Notes under the pieces: generated by a model
What the model saw: only the letters and a program-made list of their open reading frames with translations
Databases searched by the model: none
What the model was told of the DNA's origin: nothing
In this document: one piece after another, positions 6,752 to 18,935 of the stretch
How the letters are laid out: each line of letters starts with the position of its first letter
Position numbering within the stretch: the stretch's first letter is position 1
Translations under genes and position numbers: made by a program
Source of the DNA: Alphaproteobacteria bacterium CG11_big_fil_rev_8_21_14_0_20_39_49
Lineage (GTDB): Bacteria; Pseudomonadota; Alphaproteobacteria; Rickettsiales; UBA6187
Length of the DNA stretch: 64,000 nucleotides
Direction of reading: 5' to 3'
NCBI GenBank assembly: GCA_002787635.1
Contig: PCXK01000028.1
Location: 148,118 to 212,117, forward strand

Positions 6752-6935
6752 TTAAAAAAATATACATTTTTTGTCATTTGTTTACGAAATATTTACAATT
6801 GAACTTGTATAATTTATAGATTAACCTAAACAAGTTATTTTGCTAACTATAAAAAAATTTGAGCATATGTTACGTAAACAGCCGAAAAGTAAAACGAAAG
6901 TATCAAGCGGACAGCCGACAAAAGGTGGCTGGCAA

Positions 6936-8840
6936 ATGGATAAAGCCGAAAAAAATAAAGGGTCGGGTATTAAGAACCTGTTCAAGATGCTTTTACTTTT
7001 TCTTGGCGTAGGTTTAATCGGTGTCAGTTTCTTTCTTTCTTCGGACGGCGGGGTTGCCTCAATAACCGCTGAAGAAAAAAATAACGATAATAACGGTAAG
7101 TTAGTTCATGTAACAGGTAAGCTGTCCTCAAAAGCACTTGAAGATCCTATGTTTCTTATAGAGTATGAGGGAGTCGGGCTAAAAAGAATTGTCGAGATGT
7201 ACCAATGGGTTGAACTGGGCGGCGAGTATGCTAAGGAATGGAAAAGCGAGATAGTTGCTTTGTCAGAAGATGCCGGCGACAGAGTTAATCCGCCGGAAAT
7301 GTCTTTTTTATCCGAGTCATGGAAAGTTGAAAAAGTGGATTTGGGAACTTTTGGTCTTTCCGAATCCATAATTGAGAAAGTTGTTAATTACACTCCGTTA
7401 GAATTAAATCAGGAAAATTTTTCAAAATTAAATAAACATGGTCAGGCTGCATTTAAGTTACATGAAGGTATGTATTTTTGGGGGCATGACCAAAACAACC
7501 CTTTAATAGGTGATATTAGAGTTAGGTTTGAAGTGGCAGAAGCAGCCACCTATTCGGTTCTTGCCAAACAAACAGGCGGTAACTTAAGTGCATATAGCGA
7601 TGGAGGAGCTACGATAGAGAAGGTAGCCAGAGGCAATGTTAGCTTAGAAACAATGCTAAAAGGCGTTGATTCTGTCGGTGGTGGCATTATGCCCCTTATA
7701 CTTAGAGTTATCGGTGGTCTTTCGTTCATTTTATTTATATTAACATTAGTGTTAGGTAGAAAAAATTCTCCAAAATTAGCCAAAGAGCCGACAGATAAAA
7801 GCAAAGAAGCGGTATCCGAAAATCAGCCTCAACAGAATACGGATAGTATTCCGGCTTCTACTGAAAATAAAAATGCGGCAATTGATGACGGATTTAATTC
7901 CGATAACATCGATGATGAAGTTTTAGAAGATATTGAAATGCAGGAAGACGGGTATGGTTACGAACCCGAAGATAACGACAACGAAAATTCTATGCCCCCT
8001 TATCTTGCTTCCGCTGAAGAATCTTATAATGACTTTAGCGATAATATTCCTGACAGCATAGATATGGCGGATGAAGATGAAGACGATAACGAACTACCCG
8101 AAGGGATAGAGATTATAGGCGGTGATGACTTTGAAGAGGAAGCACCGAAAGCCGGTTCATCGGAATTTGAATCTTCACCTGAAGAATACGAAACAGAAGA
8201 CAATAACGAAGCCCCAGAAGGAATCGAAATTATAGAAGAAGAAATTGATGACTCATTAGAGTTCGCACCATTACCTGAAGGTGAACAAGAAGACGATGAT
8301 AATGAAGTCCCAGAGGAACTTGAAATTATAGGTGACGATTTTGAAGAAGAAACACCGAAAAAAAATTCATTGGAATTTGAACCTTCACCTAAAGAAGCTG
8401 AAACAGAAGATTATAATGAAGCACCTGAAGTAATTGATATTATAGAAGAAGGACTTGATTCATCGCCTAAAACCGAAGATGATAACTCGCTAGAGTTCGA
8501 ACCGTTATCTGAAGACAAACAAGAATATGACGATATTATCCTTGAAGATTTTGAAGAAGAATTCAATGATGGCGAAAATGTCGAGACTGAAAATGCGGAA
8601 GAAGTTCCTGATTTGCCAAATCCGAGGGAATTTTTAAATAAAAATCCAAGCGGTGAAGCTACGGAAAATATCGTAGCAGAAGAGGATGAAGTATCATTTG
8701 AAATAGATGCCGTTAATATCCCTGATGACTTTGATCCAAATGCAGAAATGGAAATCGACACTGATGAGGATATAGAAATTGATTACGATGCATATATTGA
8801 CGAAGAACCTGACACCGAAAGCGATAATGAGAAAAAATAG
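6936..8840 (+). CDS. TMEM43-family membrane protein with acidic repeat tail
   Basis: The N-terminal half resembles the TMEM43/DUF1625 family: a membrane segment (LFKMLLLFLGVGLIG), a long extracytoplasmic domain with VHVTGKL and the GLKRIVEMYQW motif, then a second membrane segment (PLILRVIGGLSFILFILTLV). The family's function in bacteria is unknown. After it comes a roughly 350-residue, strongly acidic, probably disordered tail containing a tandem duplication of about 70 residues (near 8085-8300 and 8300-8535) built around PEGIEII, DDFEEE and SLEFEPL motifs. I prefer ATG 6936, with AGGTGG seven bases upstream; TTG 6840 or ATG 6867 would add basic residues. Confidence 0.8.
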   Translation: MDKAEKNKGSGIKNLFKMLLLFLGVGLIGVSFFLSSDGGVASITAEEKNNDNNGKLVHVTGKLSSKALEDPMFLIEYEGVGLKRIVEMYQWVELGGEYAKEWKSEIVALSEDAGDRVNPPEMSFLSESWKVEKVDLGTFGLSESIIEKVVNYTPLELNQENFSKLNKHGQAAFKLHEGMYFWGHDQNNPLIGDIRVRFEVAEAATYSVLAKQTGGNLSAYSDGGATIEKVARGNVSLETMLKGVDSVGGGIMPLILRVIGGLSFILFILTLVLGRKNSPKLAKEPTDKSKEAVSENQPQQNTDSIPASTENKNAAIDDGFNSDNIDDEVLEDIEMQEDGYGYEPEDNDNENSMPPYLASAEESYNDFSDNIPDSIDMADEDEDDNELPEGIEIIGGDDFEEEAPKAGSSEFESSPEEYETEDNNEAPEGIEIIEEEIDDSLEFAPLPEGEQEDDDNEVPEELEIIGDDFEEETPKKNSLEFEPSPKEAETEDYNEAPEVIDIIEEGLDSSPKTEDDNSLEFEPLSEDKQEYDDIILEDFEEEFNDGENVETENAEEVPDLPNPREFLNKNPSGEATENIVAEEDEVSFEIDAVNIPDDFDPNAEMEIDTDEDIEIDYDAYIDEEPDTESDNEKK

Positions 8841-13064: not shown

Positions 13065-13089
13065 AAATTACTTTTTTTCATTTTTTTTG

Positions 13090-13124
13090 CAGGCTCTATT
13101 AGAAATAATAGAGCCTGTTTTTTT
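13090..13124 (+). terminator. Rho-independent terminator after the receptor gene
   Basis: A perfect 12-bp stem (CAGGCTCTATTA / TAATAGAGCCTG) with a GAAA loop, followed by seven T residues, 25 bp after the receptor stop codon. The minus-strand gene on the other side stops at 13140, so it may act on both. Confidence 0.93.
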
Positions 13125-13139
13125 GAAAGATTGGTATTA

Positions 13140-15056
13140 TTAGTCGGCAAAAGCCTTTATTACCTCGTAAGCCGCATTACATTCTTCAGTTTGCATATTA
13201 ATATCAAGAAAGTACCAATTATTAGTAATTAATTCTTTGCATTTACCTATATATATTATATTCGCCTCTAAAGGGTTTTGCTCGAATAATTCTAATTTTT
13301 CCTTATATTTTTCTTCGTCTAAAATCTTATCGGTGTGATTTGCAAGTATGTCCGATACCACCTGACAATGCGTATCGAACTTAATCATGTTCGATTTACA
13401 CCATTTTAGCTTATATTTTGCTTCTAAAATATGACTTTTGTAATGCTGCTTATACTTCTGTATCTTTTTTTTGTCTTCAGATATTTTTTCAAGCACTTTT
13501 AATGACATTTCACAATCATGAAGGCTATACACAGTTCCTTTTACGCATTCGTTTTTTAGGCTTCGGGTCATTTCAATGTTATCAATGTAATATTTTTCGT
13601 CCTTTTTTAATGCGTTTAGTTTTTCAAGTTCCTGTTCTTTTTTTATTCTATTTAGCCTTTTTTGTTCCGTCCTTGCAGCTTCACATTCTTCGTCCTTTAT
13701 ATTTTCATCATATTCATACCATTGATTTGCAAAAACAAGTTTACACCTTCCGGCAAGAAGGTCTTGTGCCTTATCGGGATTTTCTGCGAAGTATTTCCTG
13801 TAATAGTTTTTATATTCTTTTTTGGCTTTTTCTCGTTCTTCCTCAAGTCTTTGTGCCGATTCCAACAACTCGGCAATAACATTTAAGGCAGCAAGGCAGT
13901 CTAAGGCGGAAACTTTGGCTCTGGTTTTATTTTCTATACAACTTACCATAAAGTCTTCGGCTAATTTATGTTCTTTTGAAAAATAGTCGGTAAGGGATTG
14001 GTATTTTTTTGAATTAAATGAATTTGTATCACTAATATTTTTAATGAATTGTTCTTTATATTTACTTAATAGTTTTAACAATTCGATTTTGTCATTTTTA
14101 ATTTTTTGTTCATTGATGGCAGCCTGAACAGCCTGACACTCATCATTTTCTATAAAAATACTTGCACTGTTTTTAGGGGAAAAACCTTTGCATTTTGTTT
14201 TTAATAATCTTTGAGCCTCGGTAAGGTTGTTTCTGAAAAAATTCAAGTGCTTTTCAAATTCAAGCTGATTTCTATTCTTGCTAACGTTTTCGTTATATAT
14301 TTTAAATGCCGTTTCGCATTTAGTGCTATCTGTTTCAATTTTTTCCTGACATTTTGTTACGGTATCTCTGGCAGCTAGAATGTTTCCCCTGTAGAACTCT
14401 TCAAGGGATAATTTTTTTTCTTTAATTTCTTCATGTTCTTTTAACGCAACGGACACATATTGGCATATAACGGGATCTATTTTTTTTGTTTTACAGCTCG
14501 TGTCGGTTTTCTTGGCTTCTATTATATTGCTTTTAAAATATTCAAGATTCTTTTCGACATTGCTGTCGGTTATTTTTTGATTATTTTTTGATTTCTCTAT
14601 TTCTTCCAGCTCTTCTTTTGCTGCGTCACATTCGATATCATGTAGCGATGTATCTTCATCATATTGCGGATTGGAAAATAATTCATCACACTTGCTATCC
14701 ATAACTTCTTCTAGTTTGTTAGGGAATTTTTTGAATAATTTTCTATAATCATCAAAGGATAATGATTCTTCTTGTGTATCAGGCGGATTTTCTTCGATAG
14801 GCTGTTCAAATACCTCTTTGATTATGGCTTGCTTTTCTTCCGCCTCTTTTAGTTTTTTTAAACCTTCTTCAGCAGCTTGGCAGATTTTGTTTTCAGCTTC
14901 AATATCGCTTAGACATTGCTCGCTCAATAATTTTTCAGCCTCTTCTTTATGTAGGGTAAAATAAGATGCATTTTTTTCCACCTCTAATGCACATAAAAAA
15001 ATGAGAGATATTACGCAAAATAAGACCTTTTTTGTATCGATTTTGAAAAAATACAA
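13140..15056 (-). CDS. Secreted protein with ten paired-cysteine helical repeats
   Basis: I do not recognise the whole protein (638 residues). It has a signal-like hydrophobic N-terminus (VLFCVISLIFLCAL, residues 11-24) with no convincing lipobox. The rest is charged, lysine/glutamate-rich and helical, and every remaining cysteine belongs to one of ten pairs. Each unit reads roughly helix-xKC-(10 to 23 residues)-xEC-x-A-A-helix, for example SEQCLS/NKICQAA, AGRCKL/DEECEAA and IGKCKE/TEECNAA. Some units begin FAENPDKAQDLL, like the single-hairpin EexN/TrbK entry-exclusion lipoproteins; that resemblance is from memory. It suggests ten disulfide-stapled helical hairpins in the periplasm or outside. 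It lies 34 bp after the peroxiredoxin gene and may share its transcript. No conjugation genes are nearby. Confidence 0.8.
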   Translation of the reverse strand: MYFFKIDTKKVLFCVISLIFLCALEVEKNASYFTLHKEEAEKLLSEQCLSDIEAENKICQAAEEGLKKLKEAEEKQAIIKEVFEQPIEENPPDTQEESLSFDDYRKLFKKFPNKLEEVMDSKCDELFSNPQYDEDTSLHDIECDAAKEELEEIEKSKNNQKITDSNVEKNLEYFKSNIIEAKKTDTSCKTKKIDPVICQYVSVALKEHEEIKEKKLSLEEFYRGNILAARDTVTKCQEKIETDSTKCETAFKIYNENVSKNRNQLEFEKHLNFFRNNLTEAQRLLKTKCKGFSPKNSASIFIENDECQAVQAAINEQKIKNDKIELLKLLSKYKEQFIKNISDTNSFNSKKYQSLTDYFSKEHKLAEDFMVSCIENKTRAKVSALDCLAALNVIAELLESAQRLEEEREKAKKEYKNYYRKYFAENPDKAQDLLAGRCKLVFANQWYEYDENIKDEECEAARTEQKRLNRIKKEQELEKLNALKKDEKYYIDNIEMTRSLKNECVKGTVYSLHDCEMSLKVLEKISEDKKKIQKYKQHYKSHILEAKYKLKWCKSNMIKFDTHCQVVSDILANHTDKILDEEKYKEKLELFEQNPLEANIIYIGKCKELITNNWYFLDINMQTEECNAAYEVIKAFAD

Positions 15057-15090: not shown

Positions 15091-15564
15091 TTAACCATTA
15101 ATTTTTTTTACTTCTTCCAGCACTTCTTCTACATGACCTTTTACTTTAACCTTTCGCCATACTTTTTTTATTACACCCTGTTTGTCTATCAGAAAAGTTG
15201 AGCGGTCGATTCCCATATATTTCTTGCCGTACATGTTTTTTTCTATCCATGAACCGTATTTAGGGATTACATCAAGATCTTCGTCCGACAAAAGTGTTAT
15301 TTGAAGCGACTTCATACTCTTGAAGTGTTCATGCGTTTGCGGATCATCTTTTGAAACGCCGAAAATAATCGTATCATTTTCAGAGAATTCTTTAAGCTTC
15401 TCGGTAAAGTCAATTGCCTGCTGCGTACAACCGGGGGTGTTATCTTTGGGATAAAAATACAGCACAATATTTTTGTTCTTTTGTTTTGATAAAGTTACTT
15501 CATCAAATTTGTCCGATGTTAATGTAAAATCAGGTGCTTTTTCGCCTTGTCCTGCCGTGTTCAT
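15091..15564 (-). CDS. bcp: Peroxiredoxin, Bcp/PrxQ family, single cysteine
   Basis: A 157-residue thiol peroxidase reducing hydrogen peroxide and organic hydroperoxides. The peroxidatic site is YPKDNTPGCTQQAIDF. Typical Bcp proteins have a resolving cysteine five residues later (CxxxxC); here that position is isoleucine, and the protein has only one cysteine in total. It should act as a 1-Cys enzyme resolved by an external thiol such as glutathione, thioredoxin or glutaredoxin. It precedes the paired-cysteine secreted protein on the same strand. Confidence 0.93.
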   Translation of the reverse strand: MNTAGQGEKAPDFTLTSDKFDEVTLSKQKNKNIVLYFYPKDNTPGCTQQAIDFTEKLKEFSENDTIIFGVSKDDPQTHEHFKSMKSLQITLLSDEDLDVIPKYGSWIEKNMYGKKYMGIDRSTFLIDKQGVIKKVWRKVKVKGHVEEVLEEVKKING

Positions 15565-15845: not shown

Positions 15846-18800
15846 GTGATTATAATAAGTCTTAAATTTTCTACAAAATTGATACTGATACTTAGTGTAT
15901 TATTTATGCTTGGTTGTGCATCTTTATTTGCATGGATTTTAACAGGCTCACGCTCCCTGTCTTCTATAACCCCTTCTATTGAACGTGAGTTGAGTTCATT
16001 AAGCAAGAATATAAATGTTACTATAGAAGAGAGTTTCATAAAGTGGGATAGGGACGAAAAGGCAATAGTTATCGAAGCAAATAACGTCTCGGTATTAAAC
16101 CGCAAATCCAATAGACCCGTTGCCGGATTTCCCAAAATTGCATTTGATTTCAGTTTGCTGAACTTCTTGAAGGGCAATGTAGTTTCATCTGATATAACTC
16201 TGATAAATCCGACTTTTTATTTGGATACCACAAAAAAATCTTTGTATTTTGATAGCAAAGAAAAAGATGATGCTGAAGCAAATTCGGTTTTTAATGATGT
16301 ATTAGAGTCTTTAAAAAAAGGGGAGTATAGCTTTCCTGTAAACAGCATACGACTTAAAAACGCAGATTTGTTTATTAGTAACGGTTTTAGCGATTTTGTC
16401 TGGCATGCTAAAGACGGATATATAAGAATTGATAAAAAAAGTAAGGTAATATCCGAGTTGAATCTTAATTTCGGGAAAGAAACAACATATCTTGGGGCTG
16501 AAATTTCCTACAAGGAAGGTGCGTTTGATAATCAATTGAAATTTAAGGATTTGCCAAGTTATATTTTATCCGATCTGTTCCCTGATAAAGATATATTAAA
16601 AAACGTAAATTTAATCTCATCAGGTAATGTAAATTTTTTGATATCCGAAGAAGGAGAGATGATTCAGACCGAATTTGATATCGGTAGCATTACGGGTGAA
16701 GTTGAGCTTTTAAAAGCTTTTGCTGAGAAATTTAAAATTGTAGGGGCAAAAGCAAAGGGTAGTTTTTACGATAGCTTTTCAATGTTAACTCTGGATAAGT
16801 TTGATGCGAAAATTGATGATTCCATCGTTTTGATATCGGGTAAATTTGCAAATTTAATTCCCTCCCCTGATTTTGCACCGCTAATTAAGGCTGATGTTAC
16901 GGTTAAGGATTTTAAAGTTAGTAATTTGCATAAATACTGGCCCATATTATTGGGAGAGGCAGTTAGAGGCTGGGTTATATATAATATTACGGGAGCCGAG
17001 GTAGATAAAGCGACAGGCACTTTTAATTTTACGCCTGAATATTTCAACCGCATGTACGCATGGAATCGAAGCGGCAAGGTCGGACCTATACCCCGTATGG
17101 ACGAAAATGCAATTGATGCATTGATAGAAGTGGAAAATGCTAAAGTCACCTATATGGAACCATATCCGCATATAAATGATATTTCCGGCACTGTAAGTTT
17201 TACCGGAAGGGAAATGAACGTAAATGTAAAAGGTGCAAAGATAAGGGATTCCTTGGTTAATAATGCGGTTGTAATTATTGAGGATATGTACGAAAAGAAT
17301 TCCCCTATTAAAATCAGCGGTGAGTTTAACGGTTATGTAAGGGATTCTGTTGCTTTTTTGAAGCCTGCCTTAAAAAAACACAGGCTTACAAAACATTTAG
17401 ATAGTATATATAACGCAACCGGTGCTTTAAGAGGCAATGCCTCCATATCTTTTCCTATAACCGCTAGCTTAAGTTACGATCAGTTTGATATTGAAATTGA
17501 CTCTAAATTTTCGGACGTAAAGCTTCCATCATTTATAAACGGGCATGATGTTTCGGATTCTTCTTTTAATTTAACATTAAAAGACAATCTACTTAATGTA
17601 GACGGTACATTCGGTGTTTTAAACAGCACTGCAAAGGTTTCTTATAACAGGGATATAACGGTTAATAATAAGTCTGACTATACTATTTCAGGTAAATTTA
17701 CTCCTGAGAAACTTAAGAAGCTCGGCATTGCCGACATACCTGAATTTATAAAGAACGAGTTGTTCTTGGAAGCAAAAATGCGTGAAAGAAATGAGACGAC
17801 TTATGTAAATGGCGACATTGACCTCACCAAATCCGAGATATCCATTGAAAAAGCTGATTTTTTTAAGGAAGTTAACAAAAAGTCAAAGTTGGTTTTTGCC
17901 TTAAAAGATTACAAGGAAGGAAGTATAAATGAAACGGAGGTTAAAAGCTTTGTTCTTTCAGGTGATGATTTTGCAATAAACGGTAGTCTGAAAATAAATA
18001 ACGCAAAGTTGAATAGTTTAGAGATACAAAGTGCCAAATATAAAAATAATGATTATTCATTGAGCTACAAGCTTGAAAATAACGGTCATGTAGTACAACT
18101 TAACGGAAAAACACTGGATTTAAGTTCGGTTTCATTCGGTGAGTTCTTTAAAGACGAAAAGACGGACGAAAATAATGCATTTTCGTTTAAGGCTGCCGTT
18201 GACAAGGTTTTTATGAAAAATAGCGAGTCTTTGTCAAAGTTAACGGTAGATATGGATTGTTCTTCCGAATTATGTTCTTCTATAAATGCTTATGCAAAAG
18301 CCGCCCGTGATTCATTTGTTGCTTTGAGTGTAAAGCCTGTAGGGAAAAGTTATTCATTTATGCTTGAGGCGGACAATGCCGGTTCGGTGATTAATGCTTT
18401 TGGTATTTCAAAGCATATTGAGGGGGGGCGTTTAACTGTTGAATCAACATTTTCTAAGAGTAAAAACGGTTTAGTTGCAAACGGTCTGATTCAGATACGT
18501 GATTTTACGGCTATAAAAACACCTGTTTTGGGTAAGCTGCTTACATTGGCATCTTTAAAAGGAATATCGGATCTTCTAAATAATAACGGTATCAGGTTTG
18601 AGCGTTTTGCGGCTCCGTTCCATCTTTCAAGGGGGGTGATAACCCTGCATGATGCTAAAACGGCAGGTTCCTCTATCGGAATTACTTCGGAGGGAACTGT
18701 TGACATGAATTCAGGTCATATTGATTTAAGTGGCGCTATAGTTCCGGCATATGAAGTTAATAAGGTTTTGGGGGACATACCTTTGCTGGGAAATCTATTG

Positions 18801-18935
18801 GTAGGGAAAAAGAACGAAGGAGTTATAGCCACCAAGTACAGGGTCAAAGGTCCGTATGAAGATGTTAAGATAACGGTAAATCCTCTGACAATATTAACTC
18901 CGGGCTTTTTGAGGAATATATTTGATATATTTTAA
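15846..18935 (+). CDS. AsmA-like / YhdP-type protein (DUF3971), envelope lipid transport candidate
   Basis: A 1029-residue protein with an N-terminal membrane anchor (about residues 10-35) and a very long beta-rich periplasmic body. The C-terminus (YRVKGPYEDVKITVNPL ... TPGFLRNIF) is the typical ending of alphaproteobacterial AsmA/DUF3971 proteins. E. coli relatives (YhdP, TamB, YdbH) form bridge-like channels carrying phospholipid to the outer membrane. I use the GTG at 15846, since the next ATG would cut into the anchor. A shell-A element lies directly upstream. Role by homology only. Confidence 0.85.
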   Translation: MIIISLKFSTKLILILSVLFMLGCASLFAWILTGSRSLSSITPSIERELSSLSKNINVTIEESFIKWDRDEKAIVIEANNVSVLNRKSNRPVAGFPKIAFDFSLLNFLKGNVVSSDITLINPTFYLDTTKKSLYFDSKEKDDAEANSVFNDVLESLKKGEYSFPVNSIRLKNADLFISNGFSDFVWHAKDGYIRIDKKSKVISELNLNFGKETTYLGAEISYKEGAFDNQLKFKDLPSYILSDLFPDKDILKNVNLISSGNVNFLISEEGEMIQTEFDIGSITGEVELLKAFAEKFKIVGAKAKGSFYDSFSMLTLDKFDAKIDDSIVLISGKFANLIPSPDFAPLIKADVTVKDFKVSNLHKYWPILLGEAVRGWVIYNITGAEVDKATGTFNFTPEYFNRMYAWNRSGKVGPIPRMDENAIDALIEVENAKVTYMEPYPHINDISGTVSFTGREMNVNVKGAKIRDSLVNNAVVIIEDMYEKNSPIKISGEFNGYVRDSVAFLKPALKKHRLTKHLDSIYNATGALRGNASISFPITASLSYDQFDIEIDSKFSDVKLPSFINGHDVSDSSFNLTLKDNLLNVDGTFGVLNSTAKVSYNRDITVNNKSDYTISGKFTPEKLKKLGIADIPEFIKNELFLEAKMRERNETTYVNGDIDLTKSEISIEKADFFKEVNKKSKLVFALKDYKEGSINETEVKSFVLSGDDFAINGSLKINNAKLNSLEIQSAKYKNNDYSLSYKLENNGHVVQLNGKTLDLSSVSFGEFFKDEKTDENNAFSFKAAVDKVFMKNSESLSKLTVDMDCSSELCSSINAYAKAARDSFVALSVKPVGKSYSFMLEADNAGSVINAFGISKHIEGGRLTVESTFSKSKNGLVANGLIQIRDFTAIKTPVLGKLLTLASLKGISDLLNNNGIRFERFAAPFHLSRGVITLHDAKTAGSSIGITSEGTVDMNSGHIDLSGAIVPAYEVNKVLGDIPLLGNLLVGKKNEGVIATKYRVKGPYEDVKITVNPLTILTPGFLRNIFDIF

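Follow-up and report, generated by a model that had tools for sequence, protein, structure and literature searches.

The array gene and its surroundings

The window analysed here is a stretch of DNA of 64,000 nucleotides. Its minus strand encodes, at 13140..15056, an exported-looking protein of 638 aa that begins at a TTG start and carries ten paired-cysteine helical units. The protein has 22 cysteines, two in the signal region (residues 14 and 22) and 20 beyond it. Since the latter alternate between short and long gaps, they form ten pairs (48/59, 123/143, 188/198, 236/247, 289/307, 373/387, 438/458, 504/515, 553/564 and 606/626), and all gaps within pairs (10-20) are smaller than those between pairs (38-66). 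Such strict alternation was obtained in about 1e-5 of random-placement trials. A sequence-only reading of this DNA had described ten regular pairs, and both this result and the persistence of the pattern in an orthologue with 11 pairs bear it out, so that the tandem paired-cysteine array is confirmed as a real observation. The description of the unit itself needs correction: the pairs stand, but the loops between paired cysteines, given as 10-23 residues, measure 9-19, and the KC and EC taken as general occur at only 4/10 first and 4/10 second cysteines, respectively. A better signature is [YF][FY]..N..EA, with the first C 5-8 residues further on, followed by the loop and C..A. The protein contains no CXXC motif.

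The N-terminus (residues 1-28, 14973..15056, minus strand) resembles a signal peptide, with a K-rich start and a hydrophobic core at about residues 10-26, where the Kyte-Doolittle value peaks at 2.7; no other segment of the protein is equally hydrophobic. The lipobox [LVI][ASTVI][GAS]C is absent from this signal region (LIFLCALEVEKNA). In the orthologue the signal peptide is classical (MQKSKLIFFINTVIATIFLLSFAEISVAKD, ending ...SVAKD) and devoid of cysteine.

Upstream of the array gene by 34 bp and on the same strand lies bcp (15091..15564, minus strand), encoding a peroxiredoxin of the Bcp/AhpC-TSA type, and divergent from it is yhdP (15846..18935, plus strand), encoding a YhdP/AsmA-like envelope protein. 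Further neighbours of the array in the window are coq7, dsbB, a DUF3179 gene, a TonB receptor gene, tonB, exbB and exbD. A 13-bp hairpin followed by a T-run (13089-13118) between the convergent TonB-receptor and array genes is likely a plus-strand terminator, and elsewhere in the window (6840-8840) a TMEM43-domain protein has a long, very acidic repetitive tail with repeats like EAPEGIEIIxxx. In the orthologue's genome the array gene lies 20 bp behind bcp, and yhdP is divergent there too. The adjacency to the peroxiredoxin gene is thus conserved in both genera, with gaps of 20-34 bp. The functional theme that had been read into it is not supported: the bcp-yhdP pair predates the array and is present in two relatives that lack it (G002 and G003), and no signal sequence was seen in the bcp product. 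As for the suggested link to oxidative folding through DsbB, dsbB is located 4.4 kb from the array gene in the window and DsbB is encoded in both array genomes. The linkage is not conserved, however, since in the orthologue's genome (G001) DsbB is on contig C142 and the array on C196, a contig of 9.4 kb without dsbB. A Dsb-operon theme is therefore rejected.

VirB10 is encoded in 5/5 genomes of the family, in those with the array and in those lacking it. In the window genome (G000), VirB8, VirB9 and VirB10 are on contig C9 (VirB8 and VirB9 were recognised by eye) and the array is on C28; the array lies in no T4SS operon and not between VirB5/TrbJ and VirB6/TrbL genes. Adjoining recG and the VirB8-10 genes on C9 is a gene (L082:2-2893) for an unusual pilin-fused repeat protein, with a type IV pilin-like N-terminus (FSFTEMSVVLASVSAIVVMALGG), many Cys-rich repeats resembling sushi/CCP modules (GYxGxP..C..GxWVN..C) and a LamG-like region.

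An orthologue and a five-unit super-repeat

Among 88 relatives searched, a single homologue of the window protein was found, which comes from another genus within the family. Its gene (L004:7221-9395, on contig JAJRPW010000155.1 of the Alphaproteobacteria MAG Dive100_bin10.126) runs off the contig end, so the product is at least 725 aa long; it is 35% identical to the window protein over the orthologue length. Its 11 cysteine pairs have the same loop lengths, position by position, as those of the window protein. Scans of genome contigs for the array returned only this one orthologue record.

Comparison of all units defined five phases, A to E, which follow one another in the orthologue as A B C D E A B C D E A and in the window protein as a merged first unit and then C D E A B C D E A. 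With units numbered in the order of their cysteine pairs, all on the minus strand, unit 1 (14832..14975) is probably the remnant of ancestral A and B units merged by deletion. It is followed by units 2 (phase C, 14580..14750), 3 (D, 14415..14555), 4 (E, 14268..14411) and 5 (A, 14088..14252). Unit 6 (B, 13848..14000) opens a complete second five-unit copy, continued by unit 7 (C, 13635..13805), which has a long loop with the motif WY..D....D.EC, units 8 (D, 13464..13607) and 9 (E, 13317..13460), and unit 10 (A, 13143..13301), whose long loop carries WY..D.

The period is seen in the spacing of first cysteines between units five apart, which is 324, 324, 324, 324, 324 and 325 in the orthologue and 315-325 in the window protein. 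Unit similarity in the orthologue is 80.3 at a lag of five, against 21-46 at other well-populated lags (p = 0.00015), and when loops were left out this signal was reached in 0 of 20,000 permutations; for units 2-10 of the window protein the lag-5 similarity gave p = 0.018. Between the two proteins, window unit i best matches orthologue unit i+1 (mean 95.7 versus 21-37 at neighbouring offsets), with a second peak of 70.3 five units away. As units are closer to their counterparts in the other genus than to their own neighbours, both the array and the block duplication predate the genus split, and each unit position has stayed distinct ever since. The repeats thus form a real and ancient five-unit pattern. 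A reading as rapidly varying surface repeats is rejected, since the units keep their position between genera. Among the best-conserved parts of the array are the aromatic loops of phases A and C (CKLVFANQWYEYDENIKDEEC, CKALFADPWYDIDEDIQDKEC), and the orthologue retains each of the three tryptophans present in the window protein.

AlphaFold was run on units 5-10, with the super-repeat copies as alignment (4 rows; mean pLDDT 80.2, pTM 0.41), and on the full window protein (2 alignment rows; mean pLDDT 65.7, pTM 0.31). Both models are all-helical and place each cysteine pair on either side of an inter-helix loop, in agreement with the helical units with cysteines at hairpin loops that had been predicted from the sequence. 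In most units, a long helix is broken at the conserved Asn and followed by a short helix that stops close to the first cysteine, then by the loop, and the next long helix begins 2-3 residues before the second cysteine. Structure searches with Foldseek (best E of 2.5 in PDB and 0.44 in BFVD) and VIA-align (best Z of 4.7) yielded no convincing match to a known fold; weak matches of this kind are expected for long helices.

Relation to EexN/TrbK proteins and distribution

Searches of Pfam and NCBIfam with the whole window protein, and of Pfam and PHROGs with single units, gave chance matches only. The CHCH (twin CX9C) family was considered and rejected: its sole match, to COX6B, is at chance level (E 0.043, among 21 units), and the array has one pair per hairpin where twin CX9C proteins have two CX9C motifs. 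LprI, rejected likewise, gave no significant profile match to array units. Proteins of the CHCH and LprI type share with the array helices bearing regular cysteine pairs; in the array, unlike in them, the pairs flank inter-helix loops, one pair per unit.

The link to a known family came through the orthologue and profile comparison. The NCBIfam model NF033894 (Eex_IncN) matches the orthologue in three stretches with an E-value of 3.5e-7 and 30.1 bits, just below the curated cut-off of 33 bits; a search of the window protein with this model gave no match. A separate EexN profile, made of single units of EexN proteins collected with NF033894 from other genomes, scored both arrays above 500/500 cysteine-fixed shuffles of each. 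When the 21 array units were aligned with EexN units by hhalign, the probability was 94.8 and the score 34.4, with cysteine on cysteine and with the YF..(N/H)..E and C..A positions aligned too, at an identity of about 11% over 44 columns. The controls, 200 cysteine-fixed permutations of the EexN columns, had a mean score of 7.4 (maximum 14.1) and probabilities of at most 5.6, and the reversed profile scored 7.7. Since cysteine-fixed controls lose the match, cysteine spacing alone does not explain it. The units are homologous to the EexN/TrbK entry-exclusion lipoproteins, a likeness already noticed in the sequence-only reading, and the window protein is a divergent and expanded EexN relative. 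We do not class it within EexN itself, given that the orthologue scores under the cut-off, the lipobox is absent and the gene lies away from the usual position. A sequence search of PDB with the unit and EexN profiles gave nothing significant.

With a combined model, arrays were found in two of the 344 genomes of the order, those of the window (G000) and the orthologue (G001), which agrees with the earlier view that the array is unusual; as several genomes are incomplete MAGs, absences in this count are less certain than presences. Single-unit EexN lipoproteins are encoded in three other genomes of the order (G034, G036 and G145), in G036 between TrbJ-like and TrbL-like genes. No array was found by tblastn of plasmids and phages or when viral contigs were scanned. 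At the level of the class, 385 genomes yielded one bridging case, G778, in which a T4SS operon (L141:5778-9167) encodes VirB2, VirB3, VirB4, VirB5, a 205-aa EexN-like lipoprotein, VirB6 and then a 238-aa lipoprotein, so that VirB6 is flanked by two multi-cysteine EexN-type lipoproteins. The 238-aa protein (L141:8451-9167) has four EexN units and scores 68 bits with NF033894. In another genome, G648 (L084), two adjacent genes each encode an EexN-unit protein that has an ordinary signal peptide and lacks a lipobox. From these two cases, multiplication of the unit and loss of the lipid anchor occur separately elsewhere, and the window protein combines both. The G648 genes are near a gene for an M48-like protease and no T4SS operon is visible there, an instance of EexN modules outside conjugation.

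Proposed role and comparison with known systems

The most likely role of the window protein, to which we would give about an even chance, is that of a rigid, multivalent binding scaffold in the periplasm (or secreted), derived from a multiplied EexN/TrbK module and held by putative disulfides within each unit. The module would have been multiplied unit by unit, after which a block of five units was duplicated. Each unit may be pictured as a short helix, capped at YF..N..EA and ending at the first cysteine, then the loop, and then a long helix that is opened by the second cysteine and would run into the next unit. After the presumed export, the two cysteines of each unit would be joined in a disulfide that closes the base of the loop, and the stapled hairpins would make a stiff chain. 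Contacts would most likely be made by the long loops of the A- and C-phase units, which are aromatic (WY..D....D.EC) and conserved by position between genera. VirB6/TrbL-type proteins are the partner class of entry-exclusion proteins, and an envelope machine of this type is a possible partner of the scaffold. The data show the array, its super-repeat, the orthologue with its shared gene order, the EexN homology and the predicted helices; export, periplasmic location, disulfides, stiffness, scaffold role and partner are all steps that we infer. Several points weigh against this reading: the pTM values are low, no solved fold matches, NF033894 does not reach the window protein, the array lies far from the T4SS genes of its genome, and it is missing from relatives that do have VirB10. 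The cysteines could, moreover, have a redox role and not a structural one.

A competing explanation is that the array works in exclusion, as a free periplasmic decoy, encoded on the chromosome and blocking the incoming channels of conjugative or other T4SS, its many units widening specificity or avidity. This must be taken as a real rival because the array's relatives are exclusion proteins, and a T4SS operon encodes enlarged or multi-unit EexN lipoproteins, including one placed between VirB5 and VirB6. Moreover, a double-length TrbK of plasmid pKPC_UVA01, 151 aa long, excludes IncN as well as IncP plasmids (PMC8923210). However, TrbK and EexN are membrane lipoproteins and the window protein has no lipobox, its gene is on a chromosomal contig away from any transfer operon, and the array is old and conserved by position, whereas exclusion genes usually travel with their plasmid. 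The missing lipid anchor, the missing transfer operon and the old position-specific conservation speak for a cellular role other than exclusion, and we regard exclusion as unlikely. An equally unlikely reading is a rod or spacer in the periplasm, whose chain of stapled helices would reach across or brace the envelope and bind no specific ligand. The long alternating helices of the AlphaFold models and a unit spacing kept to the residue are consistent with it, but the pTM values are low in both models, and a plain spacer would not need loops that are rich in aromatic residues and conserved by phase.

If the cysteines had a redox role, the twenty of them might be a disulfide reservoir, coupled to the peroxiredoxin next door as a thiol relay or redox buffer. 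Although the adjacency to bcp is kept in the orthologue, this is very improbable, since the bcp product, having no signal sequence, would sit in another compartment, two relatives have bcp in the same position and no array, and the cysteines occupy fixed structural positions at helix ends and form no CXXC. It is also possible to question the descent itself, and to see in the likeness to EexN a convergence of short helical hairpins with cysteine pairs; the units are indeed short and biased in composition, with low identity to EexN. Nevertheless, cysteine-fixed controls lose the match completely and the alignment extends to the YF..(N/H)..E and C..A positions, which makes convergence quite improbable. 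Going further than the scaffold reading, we tentatively propose, as a possibility with somewhat less than an even chance, that the chromosome co-opted a plasmid-exclusion module, which expanded into a disulfide-stapled, five-unit-periodic periplasmic scaffold with a cellular role unrelated to plasmids, representing a new class of envelope repeat protein.

EexN/TrbK proteins are usually treated as single-unit plasmid accessories, and no description of a multi-unit EexN was found in the open-access literature. The array defines a repeat family missed by Pfam. TrbK and EEX of IncP and IncN plasmids can be aligned distantly, and the classical place of trbK and eex is between genes of the TrbJ/VirB5 and TrbL/VirB6 types (PMC8923210). 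TrbK of IncP plasmids is the same type of small exclusion lipoprotein, but it is small and membrane-anchored, unlike the array. EexN (NF033894; Eex of IncN plasmids) has in common with the array a signal sequence, the helix-C-loop-C-helix unit, [YF][FY]..(N/H)..E before the first cysteine and C..A after the second. These EexN lipoproteins measure about 75-100 aa, contain a single unit with a loop of about 8-13 and are often encoded between VirB5 and VirB6, whereas the window array has ten units and loops of up to 19, with neither a lipobox nor a T4SS operon. The four-unit protein of G778 resembles the array in carrying EexN units in tandem, with loops that vary in length (12-18 residues), and differs in being a lipoprotein, in its number of units and in its place in a VirB operon. 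The G648 proteins resemble it in having the EexN unit after an ordinary signal peptide without lipobox and differ in having one unit each. The EexN module can thus be viewed as a building block used once in EexN, four times in a T4SS-operon lipoprotein and 10-11 times, with a higher-order repeat, in an exported-looking chromosomal protein, and comparison across these unit numbers could reveal how the module binds.
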